Shown here one piece after another: positions 60,319 to 62,688 of a stretch of 64,000 nucleotides of DNA. The DNA lies in the NCBI GenBank assembly GCA_025330725.1, contig JAIWND010000003.1, positions 62,001 through 126,000 of the forward strand, written 5' to 3'. The notes below the pieces were generated by a model, which was not told where the DNA came from, ran no database searches, and saw only the letters and a list, made by a program, of their open reading frames with translations. The translations under genes and the position numbers were made by a program. Position 1 is the stretch's first letter. The number at the start of each line of letters is the position of its first letter. The stretch comes from Chlamydoabsidia padenii (Eukaryota > Mucoromycota > Mucoromycetes > Mucorales > Cunninghamellaceae).

Positions 60319-61557
60319 ATGTTCTCTCGCCTCTCTGCCCAAGCTTCGAGACGATTCGTCAAACCTACCATTCAACAAGTAAGTCCAACGCAAAACAAGT
60401 CGTCCACATCTTCATATATACATTACTCACCTAACTTTTTATTGTATAGGCTCGTTTTGCTTCCACCAAGCCTGCTGTTGCTGAAGTAGGTATTCATTTT
60501 TAGGCACATTCTTCCGATAAACTAATCAACACTTTTTATTTTTATTTTATAGAACACCAAACAAGTGGCTGCTGTCACCGCTGGTATTGTTGGTTCCACT
60601 GCTTTGGCTTACATGTATGTCGACAACACTGTGTCTGCCAACATGGCTGATGAAGGTCTCCATCCTCCTGAACACCCATGGCCCCACAACGGTCCTTTGG
60701 ATACTTATGACCATGCTTCCATTCGTCGTGGTTTCCAAGTCTATCAAGAAGTCTGCTCTGCTTGTCACTCTTTGGATCGTATTGCCTGGAGAAACTTGAT
60801 TGATGTGTCTCATACTGAAGATGAAGTTAAGGCCATGGCTGAAGAACATCAATACATGGATGGTCCTGATGATAACGGTGATATGTTTGAAAGACCAGGA
60901 AAGGTAATAAGAGACATCTATGTGTGTGTATGTATAGATTACTAACTTGATCCCGTCTTTTTATAGCCTGCTGATTACATGCCCAAGCCTTATGCTAATG
61001 AAGAAGCTGCTCGTGCCGGTAATGCTGGTGCCTTACCCCCAGATCTCTCTTTGATGACCAAGGCCCGTCATGGTGGTGCTGTAAGTGAACAGATAGATAC
61101 AAAAGACAACCAATCACTAACTTTTTATTATATATAGGATTATGTCTTTGCTCTTTTGACTGGTTACATGGATGCCCCTGGTGGTGTTGAAGTCCGTGAA
61201 GGTTTGAACTACAACCCTTACTTCCCCGGTGGTGCTATTGCTATGGCCCGTGTCTTGTTTGATGGTTTGGTGGAATACGAAGATGGTACTCCTGCTACTA
61301 CTACTCAAATGGCCAAGGATGTGTCTACCTTCTTAAGCTGGGCTGCTGAACCTGAACACGATGAACGCAAGAAGATGGGTATGAAGGCTACTGTCATGTT
61401 GACCGGTTTACTTGCTTTGTCTCTCTGGCTTAAGCGTTTCAAGTGGGCTCCTATCAAGTCTAGAAAGATTGTTTACAAGTAAGTCAGAAAAAAAAAAAAG
61501 TAATGATGATGATCGATACTAACTCTTTTATCTTTATGTAATAGCCCTCCCAAGTAA
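60319..61557 (+). CDS. CYT1: Cytochrome c1, mitochondrial complex III
   Basis: Heme subunit of the bc1 complex, passing electrons from the Rieske protein to cytochrome c in the intermembrane space. Six exons (60319-60378, 60450-60485, 60553-60903, 60967-61080, 61138-61478, 61545-61557) give 915 nt, 304 residues. A basic presequence ([16 protein letters not shown]) and a hydrophobic sorting segment ([16 protein letters not shown]) target it to the intermembrane space. The heme motif is [27 protein letters not shown] holds the axial Met. [19 protein letters not shown] leads into the C-terminal anchor helix. The last exon is only 13 nt. AATAAA near 61726. Confidence 0.97.
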
Positions 61558-61902: not shown

Positions 61903-62688
61903 ATGTCAAGTAACTCTGCCGATGAAGCTGACTTTGATTTGAAGGAACAAGATCGCTTCCTTCCTATTGCAAAGTAAATATAAAACGAACTTTCTTCTTT
62001 TATCTTATTTGCTAACTCTCTCTCTCTCTCCCTCTCTTATAGTGTGGCGCGTATCATGAAGAAATCCTTACCAGACAATGCCAAGATTGCTAAAGAAGCC
62101 AAAGAATGCGTACAAGAATGTGTCTCTGAATTCATCTCCTTCATCACTAGCGAATATCCTTTTTAAACAATAACGACACGTCTCTTTTTTATATATCACT
62201 AACACCATCTTACACTCTTTAATCCTTAACCAATTTTTTGAATACAGCTAGTGATCGATGCCAACAAGAAAAAAGGAAAACAATCAATGGTGAAGATATC
62301 TTATGGGCCATGCAATCTCTTGGATTTGAAAACTATGCAGAAGCACTCAAGATCTATCTAGGGAAATACCGCGAAGTAGGTTATAAAAAAAAAAGGAAAT
62401 AATGGGTATATGAGACTCACTTGTTTGAATAGGCTACCAAGATTGACCGAGGACCCAAGGAAAAGGATGATGAAGGAGGTGGTGAACCATCTACTTTATT
62501 CAATGTACAAACTGAACATTCTGTTGGTGGACCCTCTCTTGCACCCACTCTTGCTCAAAATAATTATTACAGCCGTAAGTACAATCTCGTACATAATCAT
62601 CTTCATTGAAACTAAATATTTATATATATATATATATATATATTTTGTAGACATGGCTACCAATCCTTATATGGATCCAAAGAATTGA
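61903..62688 (+). CDS. HAP3: CCAAT-binding factor subunit NF-YB / HAP3
   Basis: Histone-fold subunit of the CCAAT-binding complex (with HAP2 and HAP5). Five exons (61903-61973, 62043-62153, 62246-62375, 62433-62574, 62651-62688) give 492 nt, 163 residues. The histone fold is textbook: [91 protein letters not shown]. Intron 2 (62154-62245) is not GT-AG: it starts ATATCCTTTTT, has TCCTTAAC at 62223-62230 and ends AC, a U12-type AT-AC intron. Only this join restores [11 protein letters not shown]. The other three introns are normal GT-AG. C-terminus short, Gly/Asn rich. AATAAA near 62788. Confidence 0.97.
62154..62245 (+). other. U12-type AT-AC intron in HAP3
   Basis: 92 nt. 5' splice site ATATCCTTT matches the U12 consensus over nine positions. 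Branch-point element TCCTTAAC at 62223-62230 matches the consensus fully, with the branch A about 16-17 nt from the 3' end. The intron ends in ...GAATAC. Removing it gives GA|A GCT AGT GAT, i.e. the invariant E-A-S-D of NF-YB. Confidence 0.93.

Follow-up and report, generated by a model that had tools for sequence, protein, structure and literature searches.

Evidence for a U12-type AT-AC intron in the HAP3 gene of Chlamydoabsidia padenii and for the apparent age of its position

The HAP3 gene and its AT-AC intron

The window, a 64,000-nt stretch of the genome of Chlamydoabsidia padenii (Mucorales, Cunninghamellaceae), carries a HAP3/NF-YB gene immediately downstream of a cytochrome c1 gene (60640-61437). 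The HAP3 gene lies on the + strand and has five exons, placed at 61903-61973 (exon 1), 62043-62153 (exon 2, with the 3' end ...ATC ACT AGC GA), 62246-62375 (exon 3, starting A GCT AGT GAT CGA, that is, E-A-S-D-R), 62433-62574 (exon 4) and 62651-62688 (exon 5, including the stop). All five follow from the splice model, with additional direct evidence from the sequence for exons 2, 3 and 5. The joined exons encode a 163-aa protein that is 100% identical (163/163 residues) to a deposited C. padenii protein, P0001, the same identity that supports exon 1. The product contains the CBF/NF-Y histone fold (CBFD_NFYB_HMF, PF00808) at 102.4 bits, with a cut-off of 21.4. Three of the four introns are ordinary GT-AG introns; the remaining one, at 62154-62245, is AT-AC.

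The AT-AC intron is 92 nt long, lies on the + strand like all features of this gene, and interrupts the Glu codon of SEASDRC in phase 2. The junction sequence reads ...ATC ACT AGC GA|ATATCCTTTTTAAAC...TTTAATCCTTAACCAATTTTTTGAATAC|A GCT AGT GAT CGA TGC..., and the layout of the intron is GA|ATATCCTTTTT...TCCTTAAC...TTTGAATAC|A. The 5' splice site, ATATCCTTTTT (62154-62164), has the RTATCCTT form of U12-type donors, and its CCTTTTT complements the U11 5' end AAAAAGG (U11 alignment). The branch site, TCCTTAAC (62223-62230), has the form TCCTTRAY near the 3' end of the intron; its branch A is presumably at 62229. Between the branch site and the 3' end lies the stretch CAATTTTTTGAATAC, and the first AC past the branch site (62244-62245) closes the intron, so that 15 nt separate the last branch-site base from the last intron base. 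AT-AC is one of the two pairs of termini that characterise U12-type introns (AT-AC or GT-AG), and here it is forced by the reading frame. The product would be identical if the intron were written one base later (TA-CA), but AT-AC is preferred because it fits the consensus.

The initial annotation, made from the window alone, had proposed an AT-AC U12-type intron in NF-YB/HAP3 and had claimed that no GT-AG alternative restores the invariant residues of the histone fold. Our analysis agrees with the first proposal: donor, branch site and AC end are exact, and splicing yields the deposited 163-aa protein. The second claim also stands. Left unspliced, the frame runs past exon 2 into S-E-Y-P-F and then reaches TAA, and no GT lies inside the intron ahead of this in-frame stop, which excludes an alternative donor within it. 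If a donor upstream of 62154 were used instead, conserved residues would be expected to be lost.

A second HAP3 copy (L013) is interrupted at the same base, also in phase 2, by an AT-AC intron of 99 nt. Donor and branch site are those of the first copy, and the interior has diverged. The exons flanking this intron match another deposited protein, P0005, which is 78% identical to P0001. Like the copy in the window, it lies immediately downstream of a cytochrome c1 gene, and for the two exons compared between the cytochrome c1 copies, protein identity is 100% over 87 aa and 99% over 100 aa. The comparison indicates that cytochrome c1 and HAP3 were duplicated together onto another contig, by a block or whole-genome duplication, and that the HAP3 intron is older than the duplication that gave rise to the two copies. 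Both HAP3 copies of C. padenii would then have retained the AT-AC intron.

The second copy also bears on whether there is an intron at all. The segment could in principle reflect a pseudogene or an assembly error in a HAP3 copy, a reading for which we found no support; the TAA in the unspliced frame is equally expected of an intron. Since the second copy has the same structure, the remaining exons are intact and the deposited protein is identical, the chance that there is no intron appears negligible. We are highly confident, from sequence, splice model, product identity and second copy, that the HAP3 (NF-YB) gene of C. padenii contains at 62154-62245 a genuine AT-AC intron of the minor-spliceosome (U12) type. 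In such an intron U11 would pair with CCTTTTT at the donor and U12 with the branch site TCCTTAAC, U6atac would then take the place of U11 at the donor, and the first AC past the branch site would serve as the 3' splice site, so that exon 3 completes the Glu codon of SEASDRC. We infer that HAP3 splicing in the cell uses the U11, U12 and U6atac snRNPs.

Minor-spliceosome components and genome-wide pattern matches

We searched the genome (34.2 Mb, 95 contigs) for minor-spliceosome components, alongside 14 control genomes. The checks suggested by the initial annotation either favor its reading or are neutral. Among the snRNAs it had named as something to look for, the four expected in a host of U12-type introns (U11, U12, U6atac and U4atac), U11 and U6atac were found over their Rfam gathering scores, U12 was found as a candidate under it, and U4atac was not found. 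U11 scored 64.2 bits (gathering 39), and its 5' start, AAAAAGGGC, is complementary to the donor CCTTTTT. U6atac scored 54.9 bits (gathering 33), and the match carries AAAGGAGAGA. The U12 candidate (L001, G000:C6:583203-583374) scored 35.7 bits with an E-value of about 3e-4, well below the gathering score of 53, and matches poorly in its 3' half. Despite the sub-threshold score, it retains AUGAGUAAGGA intact, the segment of U12 that base-pairs with branch sites of this type. Over the cut-off, the 14 control genomes gave no match for U11, U6atac or U12 (0 each). At loose E-values the U6atac model matched in 8 control genomes, the U11 model in 3 and the U12 model in 0, with none of these matches over the cut-off. 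Five more U6atac-model matches in C. padenii (L003-L007, 25-28 bits) and two weaker ones are all below threshold; L003-L007 are perhaps U6. Within the window, the sole Rfam match over its gathering score is a tRNA gene at 36-108 on the - strand (62.4 bits).

No U4atac was detected by the Rfam model to an E-value of 1 (48 of 970 first-look candidates scored), and a pattern of exact complements of the U6atac found here gave 0 matches. A pattern that allowed wobble pairs gave 4 matches, compared to 4 for the reversed control, and was set aside; the three matches that were inspected by eye look unlike U4atac. The missing U4atac may reflect a limit of the model or real absence.

The initial annotation had also suggested a search for a U11/U12-specific protein, and here the result was positive. 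The genome contains a Ubiquitin_4 domain (PF18036) at 39.5 bits (cut-off 22.8), the domain of SNRNP25 (U11/U12-25K). An adjoining exon matches the earlier part of the PF18036 profile at 20.6 bits, under the cut-off and with one stop inside, and further matches at 18.8 and 17 bits are both under the cut-off as well. A search for CCDC84/CENATAC gave no match in the genome and none in any control genome, and is therefore uninformative.

The set of RNAs found in C. padenii resembles that of Lichtheimia corymbifera, for which no U4atac was detected and for which, as 'for all basal fungi', the third stem of U12 is described as atrophied (PMC4133162); in C. padenii the U12 match is sub-threshold and U4atac was not found. 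Absence of U4atac is not general, because the other basal fungi in that report each show one U4atac copy (PMC4133162). In its accessible text, the L. corymbifera report is an RNA inventory without the HAP3 intron. For the genome of Apophysomyces, also of the Mucorales, no U4atac and no U12 are reported (PMC5604411). In contrast to C. padenii, where U4atac was not found, all four minor snRNAs are reported in Rhizophagus irregularis (PMC10639083).

To place the HAP3 intron among others of its kind, we counted matches to its signals across the genome. The pattern ATATCCTT-N25..85-TCCTTAAC has 26 matches, compared to 3 for the reversed-pattern control, and GTATCCTT with the same strict branch site has 2 (control 0). 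The resulting ratio of AT to GT starts, 26:2, applies to the strict branch site only. The donors of the 26 AT-type matches vary little, with ATATCCTTTT in 23 of them and ATATCCTTTTT in 19. With the looser branch site CCTTRAY, GTATCCTT has 48 matches compared to 13 in the control, and with the still looser CTTRAY, ATATCCTT has 330 compared to 111. These loose sets were left out, as many of the GT matches look by eye like antisense coding sequence. However, the loose GT matches do exceed their control, so the AT bias holds for the strict branch site alone, and the loose sets allow for additional GT-type introns whose branch sites vary. Within this scope, the minor-intron complement of this genome may be nearly all AT-type. 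Such AT-rich sets have precedent, since AT-AC introns make up ~26% of minor introns in human and 77% of those in Blastocystis (PMC10639083). Within the Mucorales, to which C. padenii also belongs, both AT-AC and GT-AG U12 introns were described from EST data for Rhizopus oryzae and Phycomyces blakesleeanus (PMC2846911). The two types are similar in number in Phycomyces (8-9 AT-AC and 8-12 GT-AG; PMC2846911), while the 26 and 2 of C. padenii are a pattern count rather than an EST count.

Several of the AT-type matches contain a motif that recalls a U2-type branch site. In the window, CTAAC occurs at 62199-62203, within CACTAAC upstream of the U12 branch site, and CTAAC is found in 9 of the 26 matches (the window intron, L014, L015, L017, L020, L022, L026, L031 and L036). 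Between donor and branch site TACTAAC occurs in 5/26 and CTAAC in 9/26, compared to first-order Markov expectations of 0.4 and 1.7. This null is not strict, because the enrichment of some other words is equal or greater (CTCTT in 9 with 1.2 expected, CCTCTCT in 3 with 0.02 expected). The motif would be explained if the AT-AC intron were excised by the major (U2) spliceosome, with CACTAAC as the U2 branch site and the U12-like signals incidental. However, the donor fits the U12 consensus and is not a U2 donor, CTAAC is not common to sister copies, and the second HAP3 copy keeps the donor and TCCTTAAC yet lacks CTAAC. Branch-site scars in other species, described below, are also compatible with TCCTTRAC. 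We therefore consider excision by the major spliceosome very improbable and continue to treat the intron as U12-type.

Traces of the intron in HAP3 proteins of other fungi

Whether the intron position is ancestral was a further question of the initial annotation. We compared 132 different HAP3 proteins, 120 from a first search and 12 more from a second, each list being the best 120 of ~7,990; taxon groups were assigned by us from the printed genus names. Because scar-bearing proteins supplied the profile of the second search, enrichment among its additions is by design (9/12 irregular). Between SEFISFIT and EKRK, 21 of the 132 listed proteins are irregular, and all belong to the Mucorales (13 of 48 listed) or the Glomeromycotina (8 of 10), with 0 of 69 among other named taxa and 0 of 5 among unnamed ones. 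Mis-annotation at this position is recurrent: 21 of the 58 listed Mucorales and Glomeromycotina models are broken at or across the intron site, compared to 0 of the 74 others listed. For the first, unbiased list alone (best 120 of ~7,990), the corresponding values are 12/49 and 0/71. The spacing of other core segments is constant in all 117 comparable proteins of the first 120; the search strings missed in P0043, P0047 and P0101, which were thus left out of this comparison. It should also be noted that P0043, a deposited NFYB of Cricetulus griseus, has the stretch RCHQEKRKT...KFRE repeated, and looks like an exon predicted twice.

The irregular proteins carry what appear to be translated splice signals. 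Nine of the 21 have the donor scar SEYP[FL], the expected translation of GA|RTATCCTTN (Absidia glauca, Gongronella, Apophysomyces ossiformis, Fennellomyces, Circinella minor, two proteins of Dichotomocladium, Gigaspora rosea and Rhizophagus clarus). Because a GTATCC donor can also yield EYPF, AT termini do not follow from these nine scars by themselves. Three further proteins have a 3'-end scar, ILN in Apophysomyces sp. and Phycomyces blakesleeanus and VLD in Paraglomus occultum, which NTCCTTRAC can encode. In each, ILN or VLD is followed by 11-23 nt and then by T-ASDRC, which AC|A GCN AGY can encode. While ILN or VLD is present in 3/3 proteins that enter exon 3 as T-ASDRC, the 3'-end scars were spotted by eye before the scripted test, and this count is post hoc. 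Each of the three signals, donor, branch site and AC end, is thus legible at the HAP3 site in proteins of other species. In the remaining 9/21 irregular models, residues are missing at the site or across it, as expected when a predictor is forced to GT-AG. Regular and broken models both exist for Phycomyces blakesleeanus and Rhizopus microsporus, and the window protein is itself regular, so a regular model does not mean that there is no intron.

With scars of the splice signals at the same site in other Mucorales and in Glomeromycotina, the simplest reading is that one intron predates the Mucorales-Glomeromycotina split, evidence that comes from protein translations of other species rather than from their DNA. 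The intron would have been present in the common ancestor of the two groups and would go back to a single event for both. Alternatively, a real U12-type intron could have been gained twice, once in Mucorales and once in Glomeromycotina. Scars are absent from all 74 other listed proteins, which include those of Mortierella relatives, and under a single origin these taxa must have lost or converted the intron or have been annotated correctly. However, the two groups have the same site as well as compatible donor and branch-site scars, which makes separate gains improbable. We therefore favor a single, old intron.

Rhizophagus irregularis, of the Glomeromycota rather than the Mucorales, is like C. 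padenii in having both U12-type introns and minor snRNAs (PMC10639083). Its 205 minor introns include a subset at positions common to other fungi, animals and plants, and its signals are described as closely similar to the animal and plant ones; HAP3 and long branch-to-end spacing are unmentioned in the accessible text (PMC10639083). The same source describes the two largest groups of fungi as without convincing minor introns (PMC10639083). The kind of intron reported here is already known, as minor introns have been published for Mucorales and Glomeromycota (Rhizopus, Phycomyces and Rhizophagus; PMC2846911, PMC10639083). Our literature search found no paper on minor or U12-type introns in NF-YB or on Chlamydoabsidia introns, although supplementary files or introns.info may list the HAP3 intron. 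What appears to be newer is the apparent age of the HAP3 position, its recurrent mis-annotation, the excess of AT over GT starts (26:2 with the strict branch site), and spacings of 10-39 nt over T-rich sequence in 13 hand-picked introns. The HAP3 intron adds an apparently old minor-intron position in a very conserved fungal transcription factor.

Spacing between branch site and 3' end

U12 introns are described as having no distinct polypyrimidine tract and a branch-to-3' spacing that is optimal at 11-13 nt (PMC3584512). We determined the spacing, from last branch-site base to last intron base, for 13 hand-picked AT-AC introns, which are those of the 26 AT-type matches judged convincing by eye, from either the spliced peptide or a sister copy. 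Eight matches with a possible but ambiguous junction were left out (L019, L021, L022, L023, L025, L026, L032 and L035), as were five with no acceptor that passed the open-frame filter (L011, L012, L016, L033 and L034). The 13 spacings are 10, 11, 13, 15, 21, 25, 26, 27, 27, 29, 31, 34 and 39 nt, with a median of 26. In the same 13 introns, T makes up 65% of the branch-to-end stretch (last 3 nt excluded) compared to 43% of the intron body.

The window intron lies near the 11-13 nt optimum, and spacing differs between sister copies (judged from peptides), at 15 and 29 nt for HAP3, 13 and 31 nt for L027 and L020, and 11 and 34 nt for L031 and L030. The clearest long case is DCP2 (L036), with 39 nt, where the sole AC in the stretch is the one used. 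In 11 of the 13 introns the AC used is the first at least 8 nt past the branch site, and the other two introns have two ACs that lie two bases apart and use the latter. No closer second branch site was seen by eye in the stretches of L013, L017, L030 and L036.

These observations raise the idea, for which we see about even chances, that the minor spliceosome of this Mucorales lineage has relaxed the short fixed branch-to-3' spacing and uses the first AC at least 8 nt beyond the branch site, across a variable T-rich tract. As the 13 introns were chosen by eye and from sequence alone, the spacing result is a lead. First-AC use in these AT-AC introns resembles first-AG use by U2-type introns. If true, the short spacing, a defining U12 trait, would have been given up, with donor and branch site still rigid. 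Since sister copies keep the intron and differ in spacing, this genome offers ready pairs for testing what the minor spliceosome needs at the 3' splice site.

We scanned ten of the spliced peptides against Pfam and obtained a family match in six and none in four. Four of the six matches span the junction: IBN_N, DCP2 (L036, where the box A domain crosses the junction at 104.4 bits), LSM12_LSM (at its cut-off) and DNAPKcs_CC3. LSM12 (L023, spacing 43) and DNAPKcs (L032, spacing 17) are outside the 13-intron set. In the other two peptides, an IPK match starts just past the junction in one, and the second has matches on either side of it, one of them under the cut-off.
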